From Caulochytrium protostelioides (taxonomy: Eukaryota; Chytridiomycota; Caulochytriomycetes; Caulochytriales; Caulochytriaceae): a DNA stretch of 64,000 nucleotides. A program made the translations under genes and the position numbers. The notes beneath the pieces are model-generated. The model saw only the letters and a program-made list of their open reading frames with translations. It ran no database searches and was not told the origin of the DNA. Positions 1,086-31,190 of the stretch are shown here, one piece after another (position 1 is the first letter of the stretch; every line of letters begins with the position of its first letter). The stretch lies in NCBI GenBank assembly GCA_003615045.1, contig ML014202.1, forward strand, positions 1 to 64,000, given 5' to 3'.

Positions 1086-2366
1086 TTAGACATGGGGGAA
1101 CTTGGACACTGCGGATCCCAATTCTGACACCTCTAGCCACCCTTCCTCGATAGCTTCCACAGCTTTCACAGCGGTGGAATGGCTTGTCGATGCAGATGAA
1201 CGACCGGAAGATGTTGATGCTGTGCCAGGCAGCAGTGAGGGGGACAACACTGCTTTCGTCTGATGGAGGCCGCTGTTCAATTGCTCCACAATGCCAAGAA
1301 GCCTCGCAGGATTGGGGATTTTGCTCGACACGAGATTTTTCCAAATGTTTTTCGTAAACGCAAAAGGACGTACGTGCATAGTCAAATGATGTACAGGCTG
1401 GGCGCTCCGATAGATCTCAGAAAGGCGATGGCTGTCGCACCAAAGAAACCTGAGCATCATATAGCTGCAGAAATCCCGATCGATTCGAAAGAGAACTTGA
1501 GACTTAATCGAGCGATCCGCGGCCAAGTCAAGTTCAGACTGGAATGACTCTAGAAACATGTTGTACACGTTCTCCTTGTTCGGCCAGTCTTCGCGGAGAT
1601 GAGCGATCCTCTTGTAGACCATACGATTGACGAATAAGCGATACTGATTGGCACGGAAAACGACGTCGTCGAGAAGTACCTGGCGAACTGCATCGTCCAG
1701 GAACGATTTCTTCGTCATCTCACCTGGCAGATGTCCCTTTGTGATCAAAGAGCCGAGACGCGTGATGGTTGAGGGCACCCGCCTGATCGTTCCCCAGTAC
1801 TCAGGCACCGAAACGACGGGTTCGGACGGGTCCACAAGGTTGGATAGCGTCATAAAACAAATCAAATTCACGTACTGATCATCAGTCTGCGGTGAAACCC
1901 AATTCAGCGCCGGCCAGTCGGCGAAGATGTGGTCTGGCACTGAGTCTGGCACTGCTTCCCTTTCACTAGGAATCAAGGTCTTCCAGACATGATTCACAAA
2001 GGTCTCCGCGTTGTTGATATCCGTGTTGCGGAGAGCGGCGGTCAATGATATAACCGTACGCTTATCATCAGCCACCTGCGCTGCGCTGTATACGTGGAAC
2101 ACGCTGGAAAACGCCTCAAAAACGGGCTCCCATGCCTCTTCATTATAGCCCTTGACATAGGTCACGACAGGGTTTGTCATGGCATGTTCGATCTTTCGGT
2201 AGTCAGCAATTGCCTGGTGAGGACCCCACTGAAGCTTTGCCTCTAAAAACGGGTATGAAAGGATCCGGTCGCGCCAGTCGGAAATGGCGGGGGCACTCGT
2301 GACGACGGTGACGAGGTATAGCAGCGCCAACCAGACCCCGCGTATGTGACACGCCAACAGCAGCAT
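1086..2366 (-). CDS. Orphan secreted protein, 426 aa
   Basis: The product is unrecognised. The first ~25 residues form a classical secretion signal: a short charged start, a Leu/Val-rich core (VWLALLYLVTVV) and a small-residue cleavage region (TSAPA). No later membrane segment is evident, so it is probably secreted or luminal. The mature part is rich in aromatic and acidic residues, lacks the Ala/Pro low-complexity runs typical of the window, and ends in a Ser/Thr-rich segment (about residues 375-400). Its codon use is visibly less GC-biased than that of neighbouring genes, which suggests a young, fast-evolving or acquired gene. A TATA-like stretch lies near 2641-2650, upstream on the minus strand. 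The ATG chosen is the first in frame and starts directly at the signal peptide. It may be an effector-type or surface protein, but this is speculation. Confidence 0.68.
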   Translation of the reverse strand: MLLLACHIRGVWLALLYLVTVVTSAPAISDWRDRILSYPFLEAKLQWGPHQAIADYRKIEHAMTNPVVTYVKGYNEEAWEPVFEAFSSVFHVYSAAQVADDKRTVISLTAALRNTDINNAETFVNHVWKTLIPSEREAVPDSVPDHIFADWPALNWVSPQTDDQYVNLICFMTLSNLVDPSEPVVSVPEYWGTIRRVPSTITRLGSLITKGHLPGEMTKKSFLDDAVRQVLLDDVVFRANQYRLFVNRMVYKRIAHLREDWPNKENVYNMFLESFQSELDLAADRSIKSQVLFRIDRDFCSYMMLRFLWCDSHRLSEIYRSAQPVHHLTMHVRPFAFTKNIWKNLVSSKIPNPARLLGIVEQLNSGLHQTKAVLSPSLLPGTASTSSGRSSASTSHSTAVKAVEAIEEGWLEVSELGSAVSKFPHV

Positions 2367-2834
2367 GGTCGTTCACTCGAGGCGACCAATCAAGCGAGGG
2401 TTGTTTGTGGGCGAGAAGAGAAGGAAAGGGAGGAGATAGAATCGAGTGCGAAAGGGCGGGCGAATTCACGGCGACAAGATGAGTGCAGAGACGGAGGCAG
2501 AGACCAGAGATGGGATGTTGAACATGAGTCTGACGCCGGGGTAAGTGCCGAGGCCCATTCAAGGAGGGAGGAGAGGAGGACTGAGTGTGAGGGCGCGCTG
2601 TCAGCCAGGCCGGCACCAGGCTACCTTCCTAGCTCCGTGACTATATATACTGAAACGCCGGCGCCCGTTATCACGGTGCTTGTGTCAACGTTGCTCAACC
2701 TTTCCGAGTAGTTTCGCTGGACCCTGCGCTAATCTTAGTCAACGAGATGGTAGACCATGTCAGTCACGCCCCTACCATGAACATCGAGCCTCTCCCTTTT
2801 GAGAGCCTCCGAAGCCGGCGGCCTAACCCAGTGA
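2367..2834. promoter_or_regulatory. Upstream region of the secreted gene, with a short open stretch
   Basis: This covers the presumed promoter of the minus-strand secreted gene, including TATATATA at 2643-2650. In plus frame, an open stretch 2654-2872 without its own start reads plausibly as protein (for example VVSLDPALILVNEMVDH). It runs into the Fanzor-like relic in a different frame and could be an earlier piece of that element joined by a frameshift. No firm gene is supported. Confidence 0.3.
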
Positions 2835-3596
2835 GTCACTGGCGCGGTGGCGGCGAACCGAGTTCGACATGAGCTGCATGATAACACCCGCCCTCTCCTG
2901 TTTAACCAGTTCATGAACCGCGTCGCCCAGGGGACCGCTGGGGCGATGGCGCCCGTGGTCACTGAAGTGGTGGTTGCCTAGGGCGCGTCCAAGTTGGCCC
3001 CTGGAGGCCAGGACGACATCTCCGATCCAACCGCTCGCGCGTACCAGGCGTGTGCCCAGCGCTTCCGCACCGTCCTGGTCGATGAGTTCCGGACGACCCA
3101 GGGGCATGCCGAGACGAATGGCATCCTCACCAAGGTGAAACCCCGGGACCCGACGCAGATGGCGATCGCTCGCACGTCCCAGGCAAGCGTTGCCCCAACC
3201 GCGTCTACGGCCGCCAACCCGGCCGGCAATACCTGGACGAGCCCTCGCTCGACGGCGCCGACGCGGGTCAACCCACCCCGTAGGACGCGCGCAGGCGCTT
3301 CCCCGGCCGCGCCGACGCCGGCCACCCCGTTCTGGGAGACCCGGGTGGACGCCCGGATCAATGTGGTCCTGACACCCGGTTAACACCGGCGTCAGGGAAC
3401 CGTGGTCCGAGGGCTGCTGTGGTATAAAGCTACCAACGGCCATGATGTCACCTACAGCACGTGGGTGAACCGCGATCTCCATGCCGCGTTGACCATCCGA
3501 CGCTGCCTGGCCTTACCGGACAGACCAGAAGCGCGGTGCCGCAATCTCGGGCAAGCGCCCCTGCGGTCCGTGGTCGGCAAAGTCATCCGACACTGA
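2835..3596 (+). pseudogene. Fanzor-like (TnpB-related) RuvC nuclease relic
   Basis: One reading frame runs from 2835 to a TGA at 3594-3596, broken by in-frame TAG (2979-2981) and TAA (3381-3383). It reads VVTEVVVA, stop, GASKLAPGG, then YQACAQRFRTVLVDEFRTT (Asp-Glu codons 3081-3086), later VRGLLWYK, and STWVNRDLHAALTI (Asp codon 3474-3476). The order of a Val-rich strand, a DEFRT motif, GLL and NRDxxAAxxI matches the C-terminal RuvC part of TnpB/Fanzor proteins, where DEFRT-type and NRD-type motifs carry catalytic acids flanking a Cys-rich zinc ribbon. The acids are kept here, but no Cys remains between the two motifs. An Ala/Pro/Thr-rich stretch of about 80 residues separates them. The N-terminal half, including a sure RuvC-I, was not found. 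It is most likely a dead copy. The assignment rests on motif memory, not on an alignment. Confidence 0.58.
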
Positions 3597-4802
3597 GCCA
3601 ACTATGTCTTACAGCATCATGCCGATGCGATGACCGGTGCATGGTGAAACACGCCATCGAGCGGAGGGTCGCTTTTGTGGGAGGACTGGGACATGGCTTG
3701 GGCATGCCCCCCCTGCCGCCGGCGGCGATCCGTCTTACGTGACGTTCGCCGTGCAGGTGGACATGCTGCCCACCGCATGGTGGCAAAACGCGCCGTGACC
3801 AGCGCGGCGGACGCCAGTCGATTCTGGCGGTGGCGCCCACCCACCCCGGCTGCGCCACCGCGCAGGCTCGCCAACGCCACACGGCGGTGCCACACGGCCA
3901 TCAACACGCAGCCTCATCCGCCGTCGTCTCTGATGCGTGATGCGAGGCCGCGGATGTCGCCTGTGCGGCACAGCACCGTGATAGCGAGCGCGGCCTGGCG
4001 CAGCGACCGGGTCGCAGCCGCGTGAGCAGCCTCGAAGTCATGCGGAGAGGCCACCTCATGCACGGCCCCCGCGGCCGCCATTTCTCCTGGCACGCCAATC
4101 CGCGCGCCACAGTGGCGACGGGATCGGCGCGACGCCTTTTACATGGGGGGTGCATCGTCGATCGGGTCGCCGCCTCGAGCCGCGAGGGGATGCACGCTGC
4201 GACGAGGCCCGAGCAAGACATACCTGCTGCGGCGCGCGCGAGCCACGCATCCGTTCGGTTGGGTGGCCAGTGGCAGTCTCAGAGTGACATGTCATATCGA
4301 GGATGTTTCAGTCACGGGCCGGGTTGCTAGCATTCATCCATGGGGTAGGGGTTGGCCTGCTTCGCCATTGCCGTTTGATGACCTGGCAGGGTGCGGAGGC
4401 AACCGCGCGCGATCATGTATAAGTTGCGCCTCCCGTGCGCGCCGAGCGCAGGGGCGTAAGACCGATAGCGGATGGCGAAAGTCTAATGGGGGTTGGAGTT
4501 GGATTTTCTTCCATGCTTTCTTCCATCGCTTCACGATCCTACGCTCGGTGCTCCTCGGACGTTTCTCTTTCTCGAGCCACGTTGGAAGCCTTTCCGCTTC
4601 CAGACCCACGCATCCCCAACCACCCGCAGTAGCACCTGGTTTCTGTTTATTTTTTTTGTTTTATTTTTGGCTCTGTAACTATACGTATGTCTCTTAGCAT
4701 CTTGCTTCCCCGCTCGCCGTTTGCTCTGCTGACCTCTTTCGCTGTAGACGGTTGCACCCTTTCTTGTTTCAATTCCCGCCATTCAAGCTCACGTAGCCGA
4801 CC
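3597..4802. other. Gene-poor spacer before the second secreted gene
   Basis: No supported gene. A short plus-strand stretch around 3715-3795 (containing DPSYVTFAVQVDMLPTAWW) has protein-like composition and may be more debris of the same element. The last ~300 bases (4500-4802) are T- and CT-rich and are presumably the promoter and 5' leader of the gene starting at 4803. Confidence 0.4.
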
Positions 4803-6458
4803 ATGCTTGCGGGTCTGATGACAGCCTCGTGGCTGTCGCTGGTGCTCCATGGCGTGCTGGTGTCGGCGGGCCCGTTGATCCGCACGAAGCGTGACATGCA
4901 TCCCTGGGACAAAGGGCCCTTGGACGACATGAAGGGCCTGTATCCGCTGTGGCAGAATCGCGGCAACACTCCCCACGAAACGACCCAGATGTGGAACGAG
5001 GTTCTCGCCGTGCTGCCGCGGGAGCGCCAGCCGTGGCAGAAGCGTCCCACGTCCGATCCCAGCGCTTATGAGAACCGACACCGGAAGGATCTCGAGTGGA
5101 CTGAGCCCGAGTGGGGGATGCCCACGCTGTCGCAATATAAAGACGGTTGCATCCCCTGCACGGGTGCGCAACACAAGGGAAGCGGTAAGCCGACCAAGTA
5201 CTTGTCCAAGTTCGAGGCCAAGCCTCTCGATGCCGGCCAGACGAAGGACGGCAACGAGTGGCCGACGATGGTGTCGAAGCTGGAGATCTGCATGTGCCTG
5301 AAGAAGCAGTACGAGGAGAGCAGCTGGAAAGAAAAGGAGGGCCAGGCGCTGCTCAACCTGCTGAACCGACTGCCGACAGCAATCCGCAAGGACCTGCCCC
5401 GCGTGTACATCAATGACGACCCGGTCGCGGAGGACTATGTGATCCGGTATGACCAGGATAAGGTGCCCGGCCAGCTGTTCCAGGCCTCAATTTCGCTGTG
5501 GCTCAACTATCTCCGCATCTTCAGCACTTTGCCCGTGACCTACAATCCCCGCGCAGTAAACGGCAAGGAGCCGAAGGTTGTTGCGCCCTTCTTTGAAAAA
5601 TTCAAAAGCTTCATCTCCTCGGCCGGCCCCTCGTACAACACCTGCTTGCCGACCGACGCCTCGCTCGCTAGCTACCGCACCGCGATCAGAGAGGTGATCA
5701 CGGTATACTTTGCCTTCTGGTACTGGGCCGACCCGAACGCTGCCGGCGACCTAAACCGCCGCAACATCTGGAACGCGTCCAACCTGGCGTGCATGTGGCC
5801 GGCGGTGCTGCAGACGATGAAGCACATCCAGGAAGAGCGCGGCGGCGCCGGTTTGCCCCTGCCGGAGATCTCGAACTTGTTCCCGCTGACGTTCCGCAAG
5901 ATGACGAGCTACCCGGCGAACATTCAGAACGAGAAGGCTAATAACACCGTGGCGGACGGCAACGGCGACGACAAAACCATTGACAAGAACACGGCGGTGG
6001 ACCCGCCGGTCTGGGATGTAGAGATCCGCGAGATGGTGTGCGTCGAGTCCGTTATCAAGTCGAACCGCAAGGTGGTCTCGGGCTGCAAAGATCTCTGGGG
6101 CGACAAGGCGTCCAAGTCGACGCCCCTCGTCATGTTCGGTTACGCCAACGCCTTCTCGCCCGAGTTCCAGAACGTGCAGCCCGACCTCCAGGTGCTCCGC
6201 AACCGGTACTGGTGCGAGAACGATATCTTGGAGGAGCTCCAGCTGAAGAGTAAGGCCCAGGGCAAGGCCAGCCTGACGCAGTTTGCAGACCCGACCAACT
6301 ATGAGACGAGCACGATCCAGCTCGAGTGGCGCGACGAGAACAAGTCCCGCAACTCGAACTCCAGGGTCGCGTTCCGCTCCCCCCGCATCTCGGTCTACCG
6401 CAAGGAGCTCTGCCAGAGCGCGGACAGTGCCGGGGCCGTCAACTCCGTGAGCCTGTAA
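4803..6458 (+). CDS. Orphan secreted protein, 551 aa
   Basis: The product is unrecognised. It opens with a secretion signal (SWLSLVLHGVLVSAG, cleavage plausible near residues 22-24) and has no later hydrophobic span, so it should be exported. The mature chain is rich in Trp, Tyr, Lys and Asp, with two close Cys in CIPCTG and two in CMCLKK, and further Cys spread along the chain. N-glycosylation-type sequons occur in WNASN and in NNTVAD. No known catalytic motif was found. The gene lies 1.2 kb downstream of the Fanzor-like relic and faces away from the other secreted gene; both share a VTY segment followed by a P.FE.F pattern, but the likeness is too weak to call them paralogues. The start is the first ATG of the frame and places the signal peptide at the terminus. 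Confidence 0.72.
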   Translation: MLAGLMTASWLSLVLHGVLVSAGPLIRTKRDMHPWDKGPLDDMKGLYPLWQNRGNTPHETTQMWNEVLAVLPRERQPWQKRPTSDPSAYENRHRKDLEWTEPEWGMPTLSQYKDGCIPCTGAQHKGSGKPTKYLSKFEAKPLDAGQTKDGNEWPTMVSKLEICMCLKKQYEESSWKEKEGQALLNLLNRLPTAIRKDLPRVYINDDPVAEDYVIRYDQDKVPGQLFQASISLWLNYLRIFSTLPVTYNPRAVNGKEPKVVAPFFEKFKSFISSAGPSYNTCLPTDASLASYRTAIREVITVYFAFWYWADPNAAGDLNRRNIWNASNLACMWPAVLQTMKHIQEERGGAGLPLPEISNLFPLTFRKMTSYPANIQNEKANNTVADGNGDDKTIDKNTAVDPPVWDVEIREMVCVESVIKSNRKVVSGCKDLWGDKASKSTPLVMFGYANAFSPEFQNVQPDLQVLRNRYWCENDILEELQLKSKAQGKASLTQFADPTNYETSTIQLEWRDENKSRNSNSRVAFRSPRISVYRKELCQSADSAGAVNSVSL

Positions 6459-9111: not shown

Positions 9112-10182
9112 GATGCACGCTTTGACCGTGGTAAAGTCAACGGCGTCGGCATCGCGCCAGACCCCACCTCTCGTCAACGTGGCGACTGCCCGCCTTCGTG
9201 GGGGGGAGGCAACAGGTCGCTACGCACCCTCCTGGCGAGTGCTCGGCCCGTAGTGCCTCGTGCATTCGCTCGCCGTCCCGCATCGCCGGTACCAGCTCGG
9301 TTGCTTCATGTCCTCATTAAGAGATTCTTGATTATAGTGAGGCGTTCGCCAGGGACCCGCGATCAGAGACCCGCGATCAGGGACCCGCGACGGGGACCAC
9401 CGGTGACGAACGCGACGCGAGTGCTGCCGCGAGGCCGTCGCTCGCCGTCCGCGGTGGCGAGCGGCTCCCGGCGCGCCGGCCCGGGCCGCCAAGCGGTGAA
9501 CGCCGCCGCCACGCCAGCCACGAGCGCCACATCGGGCGGCTCCGCCACGCGCCGCCGCCGTCTCCGACGCTCGATGACCGGCATCCGGCGCTCCAGCATC
9601 GGGTACGTGCGTACCTGCGGCAACGCCCGAGAACGCCTCGCGCCTCGCACTCGTTATCACCGGTGCGGACTCCCGCGCTCAGCTCGGGCGTCAGAAACAG
9701 CCGCGGGACCCGTCGCGTCACCGTCGGCGGAGACCATGGGTGCGTGCTGGGGACACGCGGCGTGGAGCACGCGCCTTAACGGGGATCACGCGACGCCGTC
9801 CGTCGGACGACGCGAGGCCAAACTCCGCGCAGCAGTCCTGATCCGCGTTCCATTCCATTCCATTTCATTCCACACCAACGTCGGCGCCGCGTGGGCCCGG
9901 CCTCTCCGTCGATCGCAGTCTCGAGCGGCTACGCCGTCGATCGCTGGCCCTTGGGCCTGTTCATTCGGGTGACGCGTGGCGGCGACGCCGATCGCGAGCG
10001 CCCTGCCACATCAGACTCTCGCCTGGACGTCCTGTCATACGGGGAGCGCTGCTCCTCGGCGGTACGGTCGACAGCGGCGGCAGTCCCGCCTTCACGGCAC
10101 CGGAACGCCCATCACCCGACCACGGTGCACGTGGCGCTCAGCGCGTACGGCGGCTCGCGGGGGACGGGCGGCCCGTGAGACC
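9112..10182. other. Spacer upstream of the condensin gene
   Basis: No gene is supported. It contains a short tandem at 9354-9390 (units of about 13-14 bases around GACCCGCGATCAG) and a CATTC-type pentamer run near 9847-9872. The final part is the presumed promoter and leader of the condensin gene. Confidence 0.45.
9354..9390. repeat. Short tandem repeat, unit near GACCCGCGATCAG
   Basis: Two full copies and a partial third, degenerate copy of a 13-14-base unit occur head to tail in the spacer before the condensin gene. Confidence 0.7.
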
Positions 10183-13100
10183 ATGGCGGTCGCGGGCGCC
10201 GCCGCGGGCGCCGCCGCGGGTGGCGCCGCGGGCGCGCAGACCGGAACGCCGCCATCGCCCATGCCGTCGCCCTCGCCAGCGATCAATCCCGTTCAGCAGG
10301 TCGTCTCGCAGCTGTTCGCCGAAGCCGTGAGCAGCGGGACCTCCCACCGCAAGAACGCGCGGAAACTCCGCAAACTGCACCGACAGTGCGCGCAGCGGCG
10401 GCGCGAGGACCCGCAGCGCCCCGACGACCTCGCCGAGGCGGTGTGGCAGTGCGTGCTGCAGATCATCGCGGCGAAGCAGGACGCCGTCGAGACGGCGCGC
10501 GCATTCCGGTTTCTCACGGCGTACCTGACCCTGCTGAACCACGACGCGCCGCCGGCGAGCGGCGACGCGCCCGAGGAGGAGCGCGACGCGACGCTGAGCG
10601 CGATGCTGGTCGAGACGCTGCTGACGCGCGCCATGCTGGGGCTCGAGGCGAGAGACAAGCACGTGCGGCGCCGCGTCTGCGAAGTCATCTCGCTGCTGCT
10701 GGCGCACCTCTCGGAGATCACCGACGCCACCGACGCCGCGCTCACCGAGGGGCTCGCCGTCCGCGCCACCGACAAGGAGGCCTCGGTTCGCGCCAAAGCC
10801 CTGCTCGCGCTGGCCAAGCTGGTGACGGGCGATGGCGATGGCGACGGCGACCGCGATGGCGATGCAGACCGCGATGCCGGGGACGACTTGGCCCGTGGCG
10901 CCGATCCCATCCTGGAGCGCATTACGCAGGCGCACAACGACAAGTCGCCGCTCGTGCGGCGCATGGTCTGCGCCGTGCTCGAGCCGTCGCCGCGGCACCT
11001 GCCGTACCTGATGCAGTTCACGCGCGACCGCGAAGCGAGCGTGCGCGCCGTCGCGTTCGCCCGGCTCGTCGCCGCGCCGCGGCTCCACGACCACCTCACC
11101 CGCAGCCAGCGCGACGACCTGCTTGCGCGCAGCCTCAGCGACCGCGACACGGCGGTCAAGAAGCAGGGCCTCAAGCTCTTCTTTGAGGCGTGGCTGCCGC
11201 GCGCCGCGGACGATGTCGTGCTGTTTCTCGAGCGCATCGACGTCGTCCGCGGCCACGCGGCACGCCCGCTGCTGCGCGCTTACTTCTTCCAGAACGCGGC
11301 CCGCATCGAGGACGCGCTCGCCTACCACACGTCCGAGTGGCAGCAGCTCACGCCCGAGCGCGCCGCCTTCTATGTCGAGTGGCTGCTCTGGTGCCAGGAG
11401 ACGGCCCGCGAGGCCGCGTGGGAAGCGGTCTGCCCGACGCTGACGCAGCTCACGCACCTGCTCGGACACTACCTGGCGCAGATCGAGCAGCTGCCGCCGA
11501 TCGAGGACACCGTCGCGGCCGGCGACGGGCTGGACCCGCCCACGCTGAGCGACCACGACGCCGCCGTGCTCGAGCAGCGGCAAGCCCTCGAGTGGATCCT
11601 GACGGCGCTGTTCAGGCTCGCCTGCCAGCAGGACACGACCGACGAGATCGGCCGCCGGCGTATGGTCGCATGGATCGCCGGCGCCGTGGGACACCCCGCC
11701 TGGGACACCGCCCACGTCGCGACCCTTATCAAGACCATGCGGTACCTCTGCGAAAACGAAAAGGACTTTGTCCAGCTCGTCACCGAGACCGTGCACGACC
11801 TGCATGATGTCGACGGCGACGACGACGCCGCCACCGCGACCACGACGACCGCTGCTACTGCGGCTGCCGCCGCCGCGGACGCGGCGGTCTCGGGCCCCCA
11901 TGGCGACGGTGACGGCGACGACGGGCCCCGGCTCCGACTCGCGCCCGAAGGCCGTCTGGTCAGCGTCGACGACGACCTGGAATCTTCGCAGGACGGCGAG
12001 GGCGATCATGGCGATCATGGCAATGATGCGGCGCGCCGACGCCGTTCGCGCGAGCGCGACGACGTCGCGGGCGCCATGAGCAGCGCGAGCATGCGCACAG
12101 CCCTCGGCGACCACGACGACGACCACCGCGCTGCGCTCCCCGGGGCCGACGTGGCGATGGGCGAAGACGATGCGACAAGTCTCGCCTCGGCGACGGCAGC
12201 AGCTGCCACGGTGGCGCCAGGGCCCTCTCGTGACTCGGCGGCGGCGGCGACGGCGACGGACGAGGACCGCGAGGACCGGCTGCTGCAGAAAGCGTACCGG
12301 TGCCTGGAAATCGTGCAGGCCGCGGCGGCGCGCATCGACGCGTTCCACCCCGCCCTACGCGGGTGGATCGAAACGTTCTGCGTGCCCGCGATCCGGCGCC
12401 CACTGGCGCCGTTCCAGTCGATCGGGTACGGCTGCCTCGCGCTTATCTGTCTGCTTAACCGCGAGGTCGCCGTGGAGCACATGCCGCTCTTCTTCCACGC
12501 CTTCCGCATGGGCACCGACGACATGAAGGGCCTTGCCATGAACAGCCTCTTTGATCTGATTTTGTGCTTCGGTCCCGAGACGGTCTTCTCGGACGCGGCC
12601 ATGACGCGCGGCGCTTTTGAGATCGACAGTCTGCTCGGGTTCTGCCAGCAGACGCTGGACTACGAAGCGCTCAACAACCGCGCGCTGTTTGCGATCGGCA
12701 TCGAGGGCAACTGCAAGCTGTGGATCCGGCAGTACTTGGACAACGACGAAATCCTCGGCCACCTCATCGTGCTCGCGTACCATCCGCAGACGGCCGAGCT
12801 GCCCGAGGTCCGTGCGACGATCCGCGCTGCCCTGCCCGTCTTCGGGCTGCTTACCCGCGACCACCAAAACCGGCTCGCCCGCGTCGTCGTGCCGGCCCTC
12901 CTGCAGCTGCTTGAGCAAGCCGAGGCGTCGCGCGGGGCGCTCATGGAAGTCGCCCAGATCGGCCGCGACCTGCTCGCCTGGACCGACCGCCGCCACCTCC
13001 GCATCCCGACGCCGCGGCGCTACCCACTCCGAGCCGCTGCGACTCGCGCGAACCGCCGCCGTCTCGGCGACGACGGCGACGATGGCGACGGCGGTGACGG

Positions 13101-13584
13101 CGGTGGCGCGGCCGACAACGCGGCCGACCATGCGGCCGACGACAAGCCCGAGGACGACGAGGCCGCCGTCCCGGAAGACGGCCATCTGCGCATCGCGTAC
13201 GATCTGCTCGTCGCGCTCGCGGCGCGGCTCAGCCAGAACGCCACCGCCGTCGCGACACCGCGCACGCTGATCGGATGGCTGCGCCGGTGCTCCCTCGGCG
13301 ACACGGTAGCGGCGGCGGCGGCGGCGGCGGCGGCGGGCCCGGCGGGCGGCGACGGCGTGCCGTCTCCGATGGACCTGGTGGCCGACACGCGGCCCGCGCA
13401 CTGGCGCATGCTGGTCGATGCGACGCTCGATGTCCGCGCCCACCGGGGCTCCCTCGACGGGCTCAGCCGTGTCTCCTTCAACAAGTTCATGACGCAGTTG
13501 AATACGGTCGTCATGGCCGACGGCGCCTTCGTGCGCAATCCGGACAACGTCGTTCTGGCGCGGCAGCTACTCGTCCACGAGTGA
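10183..13584 (+). CDS. YCG1: Condensin complex subunit CAP-G (Ycg1/Cnd3)
   Basis: HEAT-repeat subunit of condensin, which binds the kleisin CAP-H and DNA and helps compact mitotic chromosomes in the nucleus. The frame opens at 9976, but the ATG at 10183 is the first good start and gives 1133 aa, close to the family's usual length. HEAT-like helices begin near residue 100 (ARAFRFLTAYLTLLN) and continue through VRRRVCEVISLLLAHL (about 162) and VKKQGLKLFFEAWLP (about 324). An Ala/Asp-rich, probably disordered insert spans about 540-695. The C-terminal Cnd3-type domain follows (about 700-940; IGYGCLALICLLNREVA). A second acidic insert (about 955-995) and a poly-Ala run (about 1042-1052) interrupt the last part. 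The two inserts are unusual for the family and match the low-complexity habit of this genome. The gene converges with its minus-strand neighbour, leaving only about 107 bases between stops. Confidence 0.87.
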   Translation: MAVAGAAAGAAAGGAAGAQTGTPPSPMPSPSPAINPVQQVVSQLFAEAVSSGTSHRKNARKLRKLHRQCAQRRREDPQRPDDLAEAVWQCVLQIIAAKQDAVETARAFRFLTAYLTLLNHDAPPASGDAPEEERDATLSAMLVETLLTRAMLGLEARDKHVRRRVCEVISLLLAHLSEITDATDAALTEGLAVRATDKEASVRAKALLALAKLVTGDGDGDGDRDGDADRDAGDDLARGADPILERITQAHNDKSPLVRRMVCAVLEPSPRHLPYLMQFTRDREASVRAVAFARLVAAPRLHDHLTRSQRDDLLARSLSDRDTAVKKQGLKLFFEAWLPRAADDVVLFLERIDVVRGHAARPLLRAYFFQNAARIEDALAYHTSEWQQLTPERAAFYVEWLLWCQETAREAAWEAVCPTLTQLTHLLGHYLAQIEQLPPIEDTVAAGDGLDPPTLSDHDAAVLEQRQALEWILTALFRLACQQDTTDEIGRRRMVAWIAGAVGHPAWDTAHVATLIKTMRYLCENEKDFVQLVTETVHDLHDVDGDDDAATATTTTAATAAAAAADAAVSGPHGDGDGDDGPRLRLAPEGRLVSVDDDLESSQDGEGDHGDHGNDAARRRRSRERDDVAGAMSSASMRTALGDHDDDHRAALPGADVAMGEDDATSLASATAAAATVAPGPSRDSAAAATATDEDREDRLLQKAYRCLEIVQAAAARIDAFHPALRGWIETFCVPAIRRPLAPFQSIGYGCLALICLLNREVAVEHMPLFFHAFRMGTDDMKGLAMNSLFDLILCFGPETVFSDAAMTRGAFEIDSLLGFCQQTLDYEALNNRALFAIGIEGNCKLWIRQYLDNDEILGHLIVLAYHPQTAELPEVRATIRAALPVFGLLTRDHQNRLARVVVPALLQLLEQAEASRGALMEVAQIGRDLLAWTDRRHLRIPTPRRYPLRAAATRANRRRLGDDGDDGDGGDGGGAADNAADHAADDKPEDDEAAVPEDGHLRIAYDLLVALAARLSQNATAVATPRTLIGWLRRCSLGDTVAAAAAAAAAGPAGGDGVPSPMDLVADTRPAHWRMLVDATLDVRAHRGSLDGLSRVSFNKFMTQLNTVVMADGAFVRNPDNVVLARQLLVHE

Positions 13585-18497: not shown

Positions 18498-21400
18498 ATG
18501 GCGTCGGATGCGTCGGCGGCCGCCGCGGACGGCGGGGTCCCGACGGGCCTCAGAGACGCGGCTCTCGCCGCGGCGCCGTCCGCGGTGCCCGCGAGCACCA
18601 ACCTCCGCGTCTGCGTCCGCGTGCGGCCTCTCAGCACCAAGGAGCGCGACTCGGGCCAGGAAGTCGCGTGGCATGTCCAAAAGCACACGATCACGCAGCT
18701 TGCGCTCGGCGACGGCGGTGGCCGGCTAATCCCGGCCGCGTCCTGGACCTTTGGTAAGTATCATGGGTGCGCCCTGCTCGTATCCGGCCGCTACCGGATG
18801 CCGATATTCGCAGTCGGCTTTCTTTTGACTCACCCAGCGCGATGCTTCTTTGATCATGACCATGATGATGGCCGACGGATGTTGGATGGGTAGACCATGT
18901 CATTCCGACCAACAAGACGAACAGCGATGTGTACAACGAAGTCGGACGCGACATCATCCAGTCTTCGACGGACGGGATCAATGGCACCATCTTTTGCTAT
19001 GGCCAGACGGGCAGTGGCAAGACCTACACGATGTCTGGCACGCACGAAGAGCCCGGTGTGATTGTCCTCAGCATCAAGCAACTCTTCGAGACCGTCGGCC
19101 GGCGCAGCGACCGCGAGTTCTTGCTCCGGATGTCGTATATCGAGATCTACAACGAAGTCATCAAGGATCTGCTCAACCCGTCTAACCGCAATCTCAAAAT
19201 CCACGAGACGCCCGACCGCGACATTTTTGTCGGCAACCTGACCGAGAAAGTCGTCACCTGCGGCCGCGATGTTGCCGAGCTCATCATGACGGGCGAGAGC
19301 AACCGTCACGTGGGCCAGACAAATATGAACGAGCACAGCAGCCGCTCGCACACGATTATCCGTGTCGTCATCGAGTCCCGCGAGCGCGGCGCCCAGCGCC
19401 AGGGCGTCGGCGCCGTCAAAGTCTCCCGGCTCAACCTCGTCGATCTGGCGGGCAGCGAACGCGTGTCCACGGCCGGGACCGATGGCGCGCGCCTGCGCGA
19501 AGGCAGCCACATCAACAAGTCGCTGCTCACCCTTGGCACGGTGATCTCGAAGCTCAGCGAGGGCGTCGGCGAGAACACGCATATCCCGTACCGCGACTCG
19601 AAGCTCACGCGCATCCTGCAGCCGTCGCTGGGCGGGAACGCACAGACCGCCGTGATCTGCACCATCACGCTCGCCAGCTTCCAGATCGAGGAAACCATCT
19701 CGACGCTCAAGTTCGCCGCGCGCGCGCGCACCATCTGCAACAAGCCCGAGGTCAATGAAGTCGTAAGCGACGAGACGCTGCTCCGGCGATACCGCAAGGA
19801 AATCACGCATCTGAAGCGGCAGCTGGACACGATGCGCAGCGCCAGCGCCAGCGCCACCGTCGTGGCGGGGGTCTCGCCCGCCGTCGCCGCGGCCGCACCG
19901 CCGTCGGCGGCCCCCGCCATCGCGCCCGCCGCAGGCCCCGTGCCCTCGCCCCCGTCACGGCATGCCGCGGCCCGGCCCGTGAAGCGCAAACTCCGACGCT
20001 CGACGCGGCGGCAGACATGGGCAGCCTCGGCGCCGCCCATCGATGTCGATGGCGGCAGCGAGGACGAAGACCCGCTGACGGCCATCACGCCGCGCTCATC
20101 GGCCGCGGCATCGACCACCACGCCCGCAGCGGCGGCGGCGGCTCACGGAGATCTGAGCGACGACCACAGCGACGCCGCGAGCACGACGAGCGCAGGCGCC
20201 GACACCGTGACGCCGACAGCGTCGCGCCGGTCGCGGCGGCTCTCGAAGCGGGCGCGGACGGCGGCCATGCAGGACGCCGCGACGGCCATGACGCCGCGCA
20301 AGACGCCGTCCAAGGCGCGGGGGCGCCGCGGTTCCCGCGGGCGGGTCTCGGCGGCCTCCGATGCGGACGACGCGGAAGCGGAAGCGGAAGCCAATGCCGA
20401 TGCCAATGCCAATGCCAATGCTGAAACCGACACAAAGGTGGATTTTGGTGCTGGCGTTCACGCTGATACTGACGCTGATTTGTCGACCACGCCCCATGAA
20501 GCAGCCGCAGACGCGATCGATGCCGTTCATCGGCCGGCGGATGAAGTTACCGATGCCAAGCCTCTCCCCGTCACATCAAGATCAACAGCAACAGCAGCGT
20601 CGCCACCGCCCCCGGCGACCGGCGCACGTGACGAGAAAGCGTTGCAGCAGGAAGCGGTGTATGAGATGATGCTGGATGTCCTGGACGCGCTGTCACATGA
20701 CAAGATGCCGCCCGAGTTGGTGAATCTGCAGCCGCTGGACGACGCGGCGCAGATGACCTCACTGCCACCCCAGGTCCGCCGCATCGCGGCGAACCTGGCG
20801 GACCTGCATGCCCGCATGGCGCAGCTTGAAGAGCGCCGCCGCCGCGAGGCGGTCGTGTATACGGAGCAGCTGTCGTTTCTGCGCCAGGAACACGGCCACC
20901 ACGTGGATGCCGACCACGCGCTCGCGGAAGAGCGTGCCCAGTGGCAGGCCCGTCTCGAAGCGCTGGAGCAGGTGCAGGCAGAGCGTGCTCATGTGCATGC
21001 TGCCCACGTCCAGGCGCTCACGCAAGAGAAAGCGACGGCCGCGAGCCAATTAGAGATCATGACCGAAGATCTGGAGGAACTCAACATGCAGCTCGAGCTC
21101 CAGAAGGAGAGCTTTGACGCCAAGGTCGCGGCCTTGACGGCCCGGGCAGAGGCTGCGGAGGTCGCAGGCGCCGAACAGCGCGACCAGCACGCGGTATTAG
21201 AAGCGCGTTGTGCGCGTCTCGACCGCGCGCTCTCCGCTGTGCAATCCGAATTGCAGCTCGATGCGACGGCGTCCGCCCTGATGAACCACGTCTGGGCCGA
21301 GACCCATCACGACGCGCTCGCGACGCTGGAAGCGGGGATGCAGCGCCAGATGCAACAACAGGTCCACGAGGCGGTCCAGCACGAGCGGGCGCTCCACCAG

Positions 21401-24400
21401 TCGGCAGCGGCCGCGCTTCAATCGCAGTGCCAGGCCCAGGTGGCCGATGCCCTCGCGCAGGCCGACGCCGTGGCGCGCGGGGCCCTCGCGGCACGTGAAC
21501 GAATCGAAGCCCGCCTGGTTGACGTGGACGCCCAACACGCGGCCGACCGGCGGGCGCATGCGGACGCGATGGCGGCGCAGCTCGCGCTGACGGCGGCCGC
21601 CGAGGCCTCGCTGGCCATGACGCAGGAGCAGCTGGCCGCTGCCGAATCAGCCACGAACACCCGCCTTTCGTTGCTGAAGACCGAGCTGGCCACGAGCACG
21701 GCGGAGCTGGCGGCGGCGCGTGCTCAGCATGCGGCCGCGTCGGCCGAGGCCGCGAGCCAGATCGACGTGCTTCGCGCCGAGCGCGATGATGCCGTCGCGC
21801 GGTCGGCCTCCCAGACCGCCGACCTCGCAGCCATGCAGCATCGAGGCGACGTCGCCGAAGGCGCGATGGCCGAACTGGGCGCTGCGCTTGAAGCGCAGCA
21901 GCGCGACCACGCGGCGGCGGTCGCGCGTCTCGAGATCGAGACGACGTCGCTGCACGCGCAGCTGGAAGCAACGCAGGGCGACCACTCCCACGTCACGGCG
22001 GTGCTTGATGCGCTGCGGGCCGATCTCGAGCACGCGCGGGCGCAGTGCCGCTCCGCCGAGGCCGCGTGCCGCGAGCACGAGCGGTCCGCCGAAGCCGCGA
22101 CGGCCGCGCTTGCCGCCGAGTCTGACGCGCTTGCGGCCTTCCGCCAGGAAATGGTGGCGCAGCAGGCGCTCGCGTCGGATGCCGCCGCCGCGCGCCATGC
22201 CGCCGAGGCGCAGCTTGCCGCGGCGGACCTCGCGCTGCAGAAGCGTGAGGCCGTCGTGACATCGCTGACCGCGCAGCTGGATGAGGCGCAGCAGCTGGTG
22301 ACGGAGACGCAGCAGCACGTGACCCGTCTTACGACCCAACTCGCCGAGCAGCAGGATGCGGTCGATGCTCGCGTCGCCCAGCGCGAGGCCGACTTGGCCG
22401 CGGCGCAGCAGACGGCCGGCACGCTCGCTGCCCAGCTGGCGCTCGTCCGGGCCGACGCTGCTGCGGACGCCGCGGCGGAGGTGATGGCCTCGGCACTGTC
22501 GTCGTCCGTGCTCGTCGCCACGCTCGAAGCCGCCGCAGCCGAGCAGACGGCCGCTGTGCGCGGGGACCACGCCGTGGCCGTCCAGCGCCTGCAGACCGAC
22601 CTCGCCCGTGCCACGGCGGCGCTCGCGGCGGCCCAGGAGGATGCCGCTACCCGTGACGCGCAGGCCGCGACCGCCGCCGCAGCGCTCGCCGCCGCGCGTC
22701 ATGCCCAGCAGTCGGCCGAGCACGCCCTCAGCGCGCAGCAGGACGCTGCGGCCACGGCTGCCGCCGACGCCGCCGCGGCGCTCACGGCGGCCCTGCAGGA
22801 CGCCGCAGCCGCCCGCGACGCGTATGCGGCGGTGCAATCGCAGCTGGCCGATGCCGAGCACACAGTCGCAGCGGCCGAGGCGCGTGCCGCGGCGGCCGAG
22901 CAGGCCTGCGTGGTAGCGCAGCAATCGCTCGCACAGATGGCCGAGACGTCGGCGGCTTTGGAGCAGCGCCTGGCCGCGATGGCCGCGGCGGCTGCTGGCC
23001 CTCCGCCGCGTGTGGCCGAGCTCGAAGCTGAAATCGCGCGTCTGACGGACCTGCAGGCCGAGCGGCAGCAGGCCTTCGAGTCGCTCGAGCAGACTGGCGC
23101 GACGCTGCGTGCCGAACGGGATGAGGCGCAGCGCGCCGTGCAGGTGGCGCAGCAGGAGCGCGACACGCTTCAGGTGGCACTTGACGCCCTTCAGCAGCAG
23201 CGCGATGCGCTGGAGCACGGGCGTGACACGGTTCAACAAGAGCGCGACATGCTTCAGTCATCGCTTGATACGCTGCAGCACCGGCATGAGATGCTCCAGT
23301 CCTCGCTGGATACGCTGCAGCACGAGCATGATGTGTTCCAGCAAACGCAGACTACGCTGCAGCAGGAGCGCGATACGCTGCAGCAGGAGCTGACTGATCG
23401 TCAGCAAGCGCTGGATCGTCTTCAGCAGGAGCGGACAGCGATCCAACAGCAGCAGACGGCTCTTCAAGGCGAGTACGAGACCCTTCAGCAAACGCTGCAG
23501 ACGTCGCAGGACCAGTGCGACGCAGTCCGGCGTGAGCTCCAGACGCTGCAGCCGTTGCTGGACGCCGCGCAGCACGACCGGGATGTGGCGCAGCAAGCCC
23601 TCGCCGCGCAGCAAGCGCGTACGGCGGAGATGGAGCAGGCGCACGCCACGGAACGTGCGCGGATGGGGACTGAGCGAGACGATGCGGAGGCCGCGGTGCA
23701 AGCTCAGGTCGCGACTCTCACGGCCGCCCGGGATGCCGCGGTCGAGGCGGCCGATGCGGCGCGCGCCGAGCAGGCGGTGCTGACGGCGCGCGTGGCGGAG
23801 CACGAGGCCGCGTTGGCCGCAGCCGAGTCGGCGCTCGCCGCCAGAGACAAGACGTGCCGCGAGCTCCAGGACGTGTTGCTGCTCGCGCAGGAAGCCGCGC
23901 AGCTGCAGCAGTCGCAGTCGGCGGCGCTCGAAGCGGCGGTGGCGGCGCGCACGCGTGACGCGGAGGCAGCCCAGTCGCGGGCGTCGACGCTGGCGGCGCA
24001 GGTCGCTTCGCTAGAGTCAGCGGCAGCCGCCGCGACGGCGTCGCAATCCGAGATGACAGCGTCGCAGGCCGAGCTGACAGCGGCGCTCTCCGCGTTGAAA
24101 GCCGAGCTGGCCGAAAAGGATGCGGCTGCGGCCCAATTGGCTGAGCGTGCGCAGGACCTCGAGACCGCCAAGACGTCGCTTGCCGTGCAGCTGGAGCAAG
24201 TGATCCAGCGCTTTGAGTCGGACAAGGCCGACAGCGAGCAGCGGCTCACGGAGGCCCGTCAGCAGCTCACCGAGCAGGCGGAGCAACGCGTGTCGTTGCA
24301 GTCAGCCGGCGAGGCGGCACAGGCGGCGTTGGCGAGTATGGAAGCCGACCATGTCCAGGCGCTGGCCGCGCTGGAGGCCAAGCATCAGCAGGCCCTTGCT

Positions 24401-25831
24401 GCCCATGCCTCGGAGCTGGCACGCCTGCAGCAGACGACCACTGCGACCGAAGCGGAGCTCGTGCGTCTCCAGGCAGAGCACGCGCGCGTCCAGTCGGATC
24501 ACGCTGACCACGTGGCGCGCGTCACCCACGAGACCGAGGCCCAGCACAGCGCGCTGCAGGCGCGTGTGGCCGCATTGGAGCAGCAGCTCGAGCGCGCGAC
24601 GCAGCATAGCGCGTCCGAGACCACGGCGCTCCAGGCCGAGCTGGACCGCCGAGCGCGCGCACATGACGCAGAGCTCGTCGCGCTCAAGTCGCAGCTCGAA
24701 CAGACCGAACGCGCGTCCGCCCAAACGACGCTGATGGCGACGGGCATGCGGCAGACGCTCGAGGAGGAGCGCGAGCGGTACACCGCGCTCGAGACGGCGC
24801 GTCAGCAGCTGGCCGAGGAGATGCTGGTCTACAAGGACGAGTGCGCGCAGCAGACCCAGGAGCTGCAGGCCGCCGTGGCGCAGGCCTCGAAGGCGCAGCA
24901 GGCCCTCCAGACCGAGCGCTCCCAGAACACGCGCTGGCAGGAGCAGACCGAGCAGCTCATGACCCAGACCCAGCGTGCCCTCGAAGCGGCCGAGGCTAGC
25001 AAGGCCCAGCTCCAGCAGGAGCTCCAAACGCTGACGCCGCAGCTTGCAGCGCTGCGCAGCGAGCAGGAGCCGCTGCGGCGCGAGCGCGATCAGCTGGCGG
25101 CGCAGTGCTCGGCCCTGCGCGACGAGAAGCAGGGCTGGGGCCGGCAGATCGCGGACCTCCGTGTCGAGGTGCTCGCGGCCAACACGCGCGCCGAGCAGGC
25201 CGCCGCCCATGCGGCCGCCAACGCTCAGCCCGCTCGCGCCCTCCATGTTCACCGGTCCACCACCACCGACCTCGCCGGCGCCCTCGCCGCCCACCACCAC
25301 GCCGTCAGTCCGCTCAAGACTGTCACGGCCACCGGTGCCGCTCTCGCCGCCGCCGCCACCACCGCCACCACCACGAACGGTCATGCCGCGCCCGCCTCGG
25401 CGGGCCCTGGCGCCGCGCCGACCAGCCGTCTGCTCGCCGGCGGCCTCAAGCCGCGAGCCTCGGCCGCACTGCCAGCCACGGGGCTTGCCTCGCTCGCGGC
25501 GGCGCCCGTCACGGCATCGACGGTATCGACGGCGGCGGCCTCCGCGACCACGAGCGCCGCGACGCGCAGCGTGCTGGGCGCCCTGCCGGCCGCGCTGAAT
25601 CACGCGACGCGGCCCGCGCTCCCGTCCGCGCTCACGGCCACGGCGGCTTCGCCCCTCGGCAAGCGGCCGCTGGCCCGGCCACCGGTGGCGTCGGCGGCCG
25701 CTGCGATGGCCGCCTCGCCGACTGCCGGCCCCGCGGTGCTCGCGCCCGCGCTCGGCACCAAGCGCCGCACCTTGCGGACCCGCAAACTGCCCGAAACGAC
25801 CACCGACGAGAACCAATGCGCGCAACAGTAA
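18498..25831 (+). CDS. CENP-E-type kinesin-7 motor, 2397 aa, one intron
   Basis: Plus-end-directed microtubule motor of the kinesin-7 group; CENP-E relatives link kinetochores to spindle microtubules. Exons are 18498-18753 and 18894-25831; splicing joins WTF to DHVIPTNKTN in phase 1. Motor motifs: NLRVCVRVRPL (35-45), P-loop GQTGSGKT (122-129), switch I NEHSSRSH (231-238), switch II DLAGSE (269-274) and HIPYRDSKLTRIL. The neck continues as LLRRYRKEITHLKRQL, which closely matches the neck of CENP-E and separates it from other kinesins. A disordered region with NLS-like SRRSRRLSKRAR and an Ala/Asn/Asp repeat follows (about 350-660). A huge Ala/Gln-rich coiled coil fills about 670-2190, then a basic Ala/Pro tail ends in TDENQ. 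Most ascomycete kinesin-7 proteins are far shorter, so this length is notable. The start ATG follows a short leader and has no upstream in-frame competitor. Confidence 0.88.
18754..18893 (+). other. Intron of the kinesin gene (140 bp)
   Basis: The donor is GTAAGTATC at 18754 and the acceptor GATGGGTAG ends at 18893. Removing it restores the conserved kinesin beta-strand junction F-D-H-V. The intron sequence itself encodes nothing recognisable. Confidence 0.88.
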
Positions 25832-28634: not shown

Positions 28635-30746
28635 CTAGTGGGATGCGGCTGCGGTTGCGGCTGCGACATCGGCAGCCGGCGGCGCGGACCGCTTCCAGAT
28701 CGAGGCAAGCGGCTTCAGGGGTACCGTGCGCATGGCATACTCTACGTCGTCGGCGTCATCGCCCTCCGCGGCCTTGGCGGCCGTTTTGTCGAGCGCTGTC
28801 GCCGCCATCGACGCATACGTCTCGCCAAAGAACTCGTCGAGCACGTAAATCGGACGCACCAGCGGCTCCTCGAAGAGCCGCACGAGCGCCGCCACCGACG
28901 GCACCGCGTGCTGCTTCAGCGCCATCAGCTCCCACAGACTGCTGTCCATCGCGTTCGCGTCCTCGGGGTTCGCCTCATCGGCCACGAAGGGATCCGCGGC
29001 GACGCGGAAGCCGATCGGGAACCCAGCCTCGTCGGTCAGATCGGCGGCCGCGGCGGCGTCAGCGGCATCGCTTGACGTCTGCTCGGTCTGCTCGGTCGAC
29101 GCGGGGTCCTTGCTCTCGGGGTTGTGGCTGCTGGTCGTGTTGATGGCCGGAGCCGCCGTGGTCGTCGCCGCGCGCGGCTGGTACTGGAGCAGGCCGATCA
29201 CGTTGTTGTGGCGCTTCAGGGTGTTGTAGAGGAAGGGCAGCACAAAGAGCAGCACGGGCGTCGGCGCGCGCAGGGCCTGGCGCGCCGTGCGCTTGACAAA
29301 CGCCGCCACGAGACGGTCTGAGAGCTGGACCGACGACAGGAAGATGTTCAGCAGGCGGAAGAAGCGCGGCAGGTGCGGCAGCTGCCACAGGTCCGTGTAG
29401 CCCACGAGCGCGTACAGTTGCTTCCAGAAGTCCGGGTACGTGACGTTGTACCGCTGGATCAGGGTCCACAGACCATAGAGCGCCTCAACCGCAAGGGCCC
29501 CACCGCGCTCGTACGCGGACGAGAAGAAGTCGGTCATCAGCTGCGGCTCGCGCAGACAGGGCAGCAGCTTGGGCATCCGCAGCAGCAGCGGCTTGAGGAC
29601 CGACACGGGCAGCACGTGGCGCAGGTAGCCGCGGAAAAAGAGATTCAGCGCCTTCTGGCCCTCACGGGCGAGGGTATGGGGGTACACGTCCTTCGGGCCG
29701 AGCGGGTACGTATCGTACACGGGCACAAAGAAGAGCGGCTCGGTTTCCTCGTCGTCGCGGTCGTGGTCGGGGTCTTCGAGGTCCTCGCGCGCAAAGCCGA
29801 ACTCGTCGCGCTCGATCACGCGCTTGCCCGCCGCGCGCTGCTTCGCATGGCGCTTCTGCTGGCTCTGCTGGTCGGCCTCGCCGGCCGCGCCGATCGTCGT
29901 AAAGTCCAGCGGGCCCACCAGTGCCCAGACTTGGTCCAGCACGGCGAGGCGCTCGGCTTCCGTGCGGTACAGCACCCCGGTATACTGCGTCGTGTCCGTC
30001 TGGAGCGTGCGGTGCAGCATCTCGGCGAGGCCACGGAACGCGTGCAAGCGGAAGTCGGGGAACTGCTCGAGCTTGTCCATCAGGTTAGCGCGGACCGGCG
30101 CGAGCAGCGGCTCGCCCTCGCGGTGCGCGAACACTGCCGTCCAGAAATCGGCCATCGACGTGATGCTCAGGATGGGCTTGCCCGTCTTCTGGCTCTCGCG
30201 CAGCGAGTCGGCGGTCACCTCCACCAGCAGCAGCTCCACCGCGTGCAGCACAAACACGGGGTCCGCTTCCTGCATCTGCAAGCGCAGCAGCTTCACGAAC
30301 AGGCGGTACTGGTTCTTGATGTACTGCGCCGTGGCTTTGCTCACGCTACCGCTGTGCACGCGGGGCATCAGCACGCCGTAGATGCGGGACAGCAGCGTCT
30401 CGGCCTCGAACCGCGTCTTGGCAGCCACCGACGATGCCGACGCCGACGGCTGGCTACGCCGGAACAGCTCTGCCAGATGCGTCAGATGCTGCGTCGATGT
30501 AATCACTTCCTGCGCGAGCACGGCGCTCGACAGCGCCGCTACGTCTCGTTCTTCGGCCTTGCTCGGCTTGATCGCCTTGATCTTTTCCGAAGAAACGGTC
30601 GTCTTGGCGGTTTTGCTGGAGGGCGTGGGGGCTGCCGCGGCAGCACTAGCAGCCGCAGCCGCAGACGAGCCACGGGCCTTCTTGGCCGGCGTCGCCGGGG
30701 CAGCGGCGGCGGCGGCCGGCGCCACCGAGCGCTTCACAGCAGGCAT
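28635..30746 (-). CDS. NOC4: Nucleolar complex protein 4 (CBF/Mak21 family)
   Basis: Noc4 pairs with Nop14 in the small-subunit processome and is needed for 40S assembly and export. The 703-aa protein starts with a basic, Ala-rich tail carrying NLS-like AKKARGSS, followed by helical repeats. The C-terminal half carries the CBF/Mak21 fold: LNLFFRGYLRHVLPVSVL (about 364), YPDFWKQLYALVGYTDLW (about 435), SSVQLSDRLVAAFVKR, and the late motif SSLWELMALKQHAVPSV (about 604), which is characteristic of Noc4 rather than Noc1 or Noc3. A Ser/Thr/Asn-rich insert interrupts the domain after LLQYQPRA. The frame is open to 30902, but the ATG at 30746 gives a natural start after a non-conserved leader. It is co-oriented with FIP1, about 0.6 kb upstream of it. 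Confidence 0.88.
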   Translation of the reverse strand: MPAVKRSVAPAAAAAAPATPAKKARGSSAAAAASAAAAAPTPSSKTAKTTVSSEKIKAIKPSKAEERDVAALSSAVLAQEVITSTQHLTHLAELFRRSQPSASASSVAAKTRFEAETLLSRIYGVLMPRVHSGSVSKATAQYIKNQYRLFVKLLRLQMQEADPVFVLHAVELLLVEVTADSLRESQKTGKPILSITSMADFWTAVFAHREGEPLLAPVRANLMDKLEQFPDFRLHAFRGLAEMLHRTLQTDTTQYTGVLYRTEAERLAVLDQVWALVGPLDFTTIGAAGEADQQSQQKRHAKQRAAGKRVIERDEFGFAREDLEDPDHDRDDEETEPLFFVPVYDTYPLGPKDVYPHTLAREGQKALNLFFRGYLRHVLPVSVLKPLLLRMPKLLPCLREPQLMTDFFSSAYERGGALAVEALYGLWTLIQRYNVTYPDFWKQLYALVGYTDLWQLPHLPRFFRLLNIFLSSVQLSDRLVAAFVKRTARQALRAPTPVLLFVLPFLYNTLKRHNNVIGLLQYQPRAATTTAAPAINTTSSHNPESKDPASTEQTEQTSSDAADAAAAADLTDEAGFPIGFRVAADPFVADEANPEDANAMDSSLWELMALKQHAVPSVAALVRLFEEPLVRPIYVLDEFFGETYASMAATALDKTAAKAAEGDDADDVEYAMRTVPLKPLASIWKRSAPPAADVAAATAAASH

Positions 30747-31190
30747 CCTCTCAAAGGGGCGTCGGCGCGGTATGAAAGGGGAAGGCCCGTCTCTCCTCAG
30801 GCAGCAAGCAGCCGTGAGCGTCAGGGATCCGAGGTCAGCGCCCAGAGGGGGTTTGGCGGTGCCTATCACTATGAGGAGTCGGGTGCGAGATGGCGGCGAC
30901 ATCCAGAGCGGAGCTCATCACCGTCCGTGCCCAGCATGGCGACGTCGAGGCGTTCGGCACCTTCACTGCATGGGCTCCGCGTGGGCACCGGAAGACGGCG
31001 ATCCAGTCGTGATATGCAAGCAGAGCTTATGTGCGATCCGCGTGCGCAACGGCGTTCCTCAAGCGGTGGTGTGCGATGGCCGATGCGCTCCCGCCGAGCC
31101 GGCGGACGGTGGGCGGCAGCGTCGCCGACGGCGAGATGGCCGCCGGGCGGAGGGGCTCGGTTCGGCCGGCGGCCGTGAGGGAGCGGGGTT
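30747..31190. other. Region upstream of NOC4
   Basis: Presumed NOC4 promoter. On plus, an ATG at 30890 opens a 40-codon frame (MAATSRAELITVRAQHGDV) with balanced composition. It could be a first exon or a chance frame. No acceptor-linked continuation could be shown. Confidence 0.3.

Follow-up and report, generated by a model that had tools for sequence, protein, structure and literature searches.

The window, by which we mean the whole stretch of 64,000 nucleotides analyzed, carries at 2899..3601 on the plus strand what is very probably a dead, 5′-truncated copy of a repeat encoding a protein of the Fanzor1 kind, from a branch without the four-cysteine (C4) zinc ribbon. The repeat would have encoded one protein, an RNA-guided DNA endonuclease with the RuvC site DPG / Ealt / RD, in which Ealt is the alternative RuvC-II catalytic Glu of Fanzors.

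Frame and extent of the window copy

The initial annotation described a single frame at 2835..3596 with two in-frame stops, and the translation obtained here agrees with it. VLVDEFRTT, GLL, and VNRDLHAALTI were all found in this frame, the acids are intact (Asp 3081..3083, Glu 3084..3086, and Asp 3474..3476), and no Cys occurs from the RuvC-II Glu to the RuvC-III Asp. On the plus strand, translation places one in-frame stop at 2979..2981, followed by an open piece at 2982..3380 that runs through the RuvC-II Glu and an Ala/Pro/Thr-rich insert. The second in-frame stop (3381..3383) was placed by translation and by alignment of the copies, and is followed by an open piece carrying RGLLW and RuvC-III (3384..3593) and by the terminal stop of the frame (3594..3596).

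The closest known proteins are the Fanzor1 proteins of solved structure, SpuFz1 (Spizellomyces punctatus), PpFz (Parasitella parasitica), and GtFz (Guillardia theta). The VDEFRTT of the window copy, whose Asp-Glu lies at 3081..3086 (+) with the Glu as Ealt, was aligned with DEFRTS of PpFz and DEYKTS of SpuFz1. The RuvC-III motif VNRDLHAALTI at 3465..3497 (+), with the catalytic Asp at 3474..3476, was aligned with both proteins through its NRD.

Genome matches to the DNA query 2650..4750 (45 rows including its own place, 40 of 562 candidates scored, 20.9-Mb genome) were confined to approximately 2899..3601, with 77–95% identity in the longer rows, and protein alignment to the relative P0002 extended leftward to approximately 2859. 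The frame as annotated is thus upheld from about 2859 at the protein level and from 2899 at the DNA level, and its first part, 2835..2858, is unsupported. Aligned as protein with the relative P0055 (620 residues), the window copy begins near residue 457; the DPG Asp is residue 375 of P0055, upstream of this start, and RuvC-I with its Asp is therefore missing. The conserved non-coding tail that ends sister copies was not found after the terminal stop: 3600..3760 aligned to two tails no better than shuffled sequence did, 448 and 339 of 500 shuffles reaching the respective scores. The window copy is dead, with RuvC-I absent, two stops, and the right-end tail absent.

Elsewhere in the window, 9976..13584, 18929..25831, and 28635..30902 encode condensin subunit (Cnd3), kinesin, and CBF/Mak21 domains, which are nuclear genes; their stop-free frames of up to 2300 residues suggest few introns. 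The initial annotation placed the relic in a fungal genome, which may be right: 9 Zn_clus matches and the lack of any chlorophyll-binding protein match are compatible with a fungus, no CCCTAA-type telomere repeat was found, and the CBF-domain ORF had no match at E ≤ 1e-20 among 7,993 scored candidates. Two long intronless frames nearer the copy, at 4803..6458 (+) and 1086..2366 (−), have by eye a hydrophobic, signal-peptide-like start and no Pfam match above cut-off, the best being PWI (E 0.23) for 1086..2366.

Fanzor1 identity of the frame

A profile built from 73 database relatives, none from the genome's own contigs (A5), was searched against all stop-to-stop segments of at least 20 residues in the window, the two open pieces being searched separately. 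It matched just two of the 1,234 segments, 2982..3380 (E 5.9e-18) and 3384..3593 (E 8e-18); the next-best segment had E 7.2, and the best of 3,302 control segments, taken from shuffled or reversed sequence, had E 8. With the piece 2982..3380 as query, 164 protein matches were obtained in the genome at E ≤ 1, its own place among them and some copies matched twice; 150 of 490 candidates were scored, and the count is a lower bound. For the frame, a chance resemblance arising in GC-rich DNA could be proposed, since composition produces long open frames on both strands here and the Pfam and NCBIfam libraries returned no family at its cut-off for the window pieces. Against the profile values and the matches elsewhere in the genome, such an explanation has practically no likelihood, and a chance or low-complexity origin was ruled out by the A5 profile versus its controls. 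The A5 matches, together with the alignment of the RuvC motifs to PpFz and SpuFz1, bear out the annotation of the frame as a relic of the Fanzor family.

The signature residues are widespread in the 139 relatives collected. DPG is present in 116 of them, some of the others being fragments, and Ealt in 124 by pattern and, by eye, in 14 of the remaining 15, the exception being P0032. The host copies L034, L074, and L076 carry GNDPGRTNI (RuvC-I), the part that the window copy is without. The overall Fanzor1 fold was found in a relative, and TnpB and Fanzor2 match far more weakly than Fanzor1 in both fold and sequence. Some relatives bear the precomputed label PF26935, which a Pfam search of five proteins did not return; the family so labelled may already bear a name. 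A giant-virus origin was considered, but among the pattern stretches picked up in viral contigs, 600 with A1 and 28 with A3, none was confirmed, an absence that proves little, and a scan for a prokaryotic origin gave 587 stretches, likewise with none confirmed.

A dispersed and decayed repeat family

The proposal of past activity of a Fanzor-carrying mobile element agrees with the finding that the window copy belongs to a dispersed, multi-copy repeat, the copies of which are about 20% diverged. Another copy, 84% identical, occurs on the same contig toward its far end (C92:70896..71588, outside the window, minus strand; L002 and L053). When P0055 was used as the query for intact copies, none of the 84 host-genome matches, from 71 scored candidates out of 976, covered the full protein free of stops. 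Among 46 mapped loci, 8 extend as far left as residue 60, 43 extend to residue 590, and 30 carry the tail; these loci were found mainly by a C-terminal query, which biases the counts, including the 43, toward 3′ parts, and seven of them are cut on one side by the end of the sequence analyzed.

Relative to 44 other copies, mismatch at codon positions 1, 2, and 3 of the window copy was 15.8, 11.6, and 23.8% before the insert, 28.7, 15.8, and 21.0% inside it, and 18.5, 19.2, and 21.5% past it, percentages that are descriptive, as the rows compared share ancestry. The pattern before the insert is that left by coding ancestors, the one past it is nearly flat, and the insert shows neither. Survival of the catalytic acids, which had been presented as striking in so decayed a copy, is ordinary: Glu is retained in 39 of 43 aligned copies and Asp in 37 of 40, versus a mean modal-residue frequency among copies of 0.82 before the insert and 0.79 after it.

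Absence of the C4 ribbon from the relatives examined

The 139 relatives (35 + 104 more; 102 longer than 500 residues) were collected with ribbon-less queries, with 7,995 candidates scored and 120 of 283 listed, and near ribbon-bearing relatives could therefore be missed. No C4 ribbon was found in any of the 139, nor does the C-terminal half of any of them show a C4 pattern. The Ealt...RD pattern was matched by 124, and CxxC occurs between the two motifs in none of these; the number of Cys residues there is 0 in 49, 1 in 60, 2 in 12, and 3 in 3. The other 15 relatives, inspected by eye, have no ribbon either. Loss of the ribbon cysteines had been taken as a mark of long decay, a reading that does not survive this comparison, as the ribbon is equally absent from the relatives examined and its loss looks like a trait of an entire branch.

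The C4 finger belongs, according to the excerpted text of PMC10432273, to the NUC domain that SpuFz1 and ISDra2 TnpB have in common. In the branch of the repeat, the lone remaining Cys is often that of LLWC, which aligns with Cys 3 of the SpuFz1 ribbon. PF07282, the Pfam model of the ribbon domain, matches 10 of 19 A1 members at E ≤ 1 (best 4.5e-5), and its score on P0108, 27.1 bits, is slightly above the cut-off of 26.3. Because of these weak matches and the single Cys kept in many relatives, the NUC segment reads, from its sequence, as a degenerate ribbon and not an unrelated one.

It could be argued instead that an ordinary ribbon-bearing Fanzor lost its ribbon by decay within the host genome, and the window copy is indeed decayed, with two stops and a truncation. 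The absence of the C4 ribbon from 139/139 relatives and from the insert-free copy L074 makes this very improbable. A search of the host genome with PF07282 for a ribbon-bearing sister copy scored 4 candidates and gave no match at E ≤ 0.001.

The branch of the repeat thus differs from SpuFz1, PpFz, and GtFz in being without the C4 ribbon. Published definitions divide on such proteins: the strict Fanzor motif of Bao and Jurka (2013) includes the C4 finger in the portion of PMC3627910 available, whereas in the available portion of Yoon et al. (2023; PMC10711439) the Fanzor fingerprint is DPG + Ealt, with the finger in many members. Judged by its motifs, the branch is outside the strict 2013 motif and inside the 2023 fingerprint, and we therefore name it a ribbon-less variant of Fanzor1. 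In searches of the literature on Fanzor, TnpB, or RuvC with zinc, with subscription journals mostly outside the coverage, no title or abstract opening concerned ribbon-less Fanzors.

Ealt and the last Asp are 44 residues apart in P0055 (536 and 580), versus 65 in SpuFz1 (E541 and D606, as given in the excerpts of PMC10432273). In the branch, a stretch of about 45 residues, folded as strands in the model, would link the two. With moderate confidence, we favor the reading that a large eukaryotic Fanzor1 branch works without the ribbon, by means of a short zinc-free strand pair, that it was missed by searches with the four-Cys motif, and that in one lineage the freed loop gained a growing 18-residue repeat as the element multiplied.

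A tandem repeat at the ribbon position

The Ala/Pro/Thr insert reported in the ribbon region is present at 3150..3380 (+; ends approximate) and is here resolved as a tandem repeat with units of 54 bp (18 residues). Its self-identity in 10 copies was 0.492 at lag 54 and 0.503 at lag 108, versus 0.301 (maximum 0.331) for shuffled sequence. Neither the copy L074 nor the relatives in the alignment A1 have the insert, and L035 and L039 seemingly have, by eye, one repeat unit each. The order of events would be that the ribbon was already absent branch-wide, that a tandem repeat then arose at the ribbon point in the host genome, and that it then spread.

Longer Ealt-to-RD spans, of 66–75 residues in the pattern match, were observed in P0035, P0099, P0005, and P0105, and the loop therefore takes inserts outside the host genome too.

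Right end and a possible guide RNA

The copies that have a tail share its sequence, which runs for about 100 bases beyond the stop and finishes at a sharp right end ...GACGACCGCGTTAAACTCAATAT. With one tail as query, all 39 other scored matches ended no more than 9 bases apart (40 of 115 candidates scored), and the last 23 bases, at ≤ 3 mismatches, occur at 56 places in the genome, with 0 in the control. Two copies have a common left region with the TATA-like CTATATAAAC.

The guide RNA of SpuFz1, as described in the excerpts of PMC10432273, consists of a 75-base scaffold, reaching from the stop to the right end, plus 14–15 variable flank bases. SpuFz1 thus encodes its guide RNA at the same position as that of the repeat's tail. 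Guide-RNA cutting is proposed because of the fold, the active site, and this tail position. In living members, the protein would bind RNA from the right-end tail with the flank as guide, and the guided protein would cut matching DNA, as SpuFz1 does, so aiding the persistence of the element. Compensatory pairs in the tail numbered 0 of 24 (25 sequences), and one tail folded no better than its shuffles (z −1.06; 29 of 200 folding at least as well); we therefore infer the guide-RNA step from tail position.

Candidate routes of mobilization

The ends of the SpuFz1 element are inverted repeats in the excerpted text of PMC10432273, whereas no inverted right-end copy was seen in 23 oriented loci of the repeat (22 copies), most of which stop short of a left end. 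This absence would suit a non-autonomous Helitron2-like, rolling-circle element like CRe-1, 2, and 3 of Chlamydomonas reinhardtii. The CRe elements, compared by their description in the available part of PMC3627910, are also multi-copy and Fanzor-only, with 5′ truncation, internal deletions, and 3′ ends mostly kept, a habit matched here by 8 of 46 loci reaching residue 60 and 30 having the tail, although the C-terminal query behind most of these loci favors 3′ parts. They differ in belonging to the C4-defined family and in having been linked to Helitron2 ends, neither of which was found here, and Helitron_like_N (PF14214) matched nothing, its positive controls being silent too. A rolling-circle mover is accordingly a tentative candidate.

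Reverse-transcriptase copying by LINE-like trans-mobilization appears unlikely, somewhat more so than the rolling-circle route. Left ends are ragged and the right end is fixed, short repeats of ACTCAATATA occur at some right ends, and RVT_1 has 19 matches in the genome. None of these 19 places is near any of the 56 listed right ends, however, the single common contig (C41) having them more than 70 kb apart. Target-site duplications were not detected either: the longest common flank words averaged 5.72 versus 5.87 in the control (32 copies), with the divergence among copies possibly having erased old duplications. L057, L065, and L069 have a repeat of ACTCAATATA, exact or nearly so, directly beyond the right end. 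The mover may thus have acted by rolling circle, by reverse transcription in trans, or by something else.

By description alone, the repeat also resembles the most abundant repeat of Auxenochlorella, a Fanzor element of uncharacterized type in a small genome (available portion of PMC12633428).

Implications for the Fanzor family

The repeat of the host genome indicates that the loop at the ribbon point tolerates long inserts. A finger-less branch, possibly numbering in the hundreds of proteins, with the RuvC acids and the fold kept, would provide a natural test of the role of the finger. If the favored reading is true, censuses based on the C4 motif undercount Fanzors.
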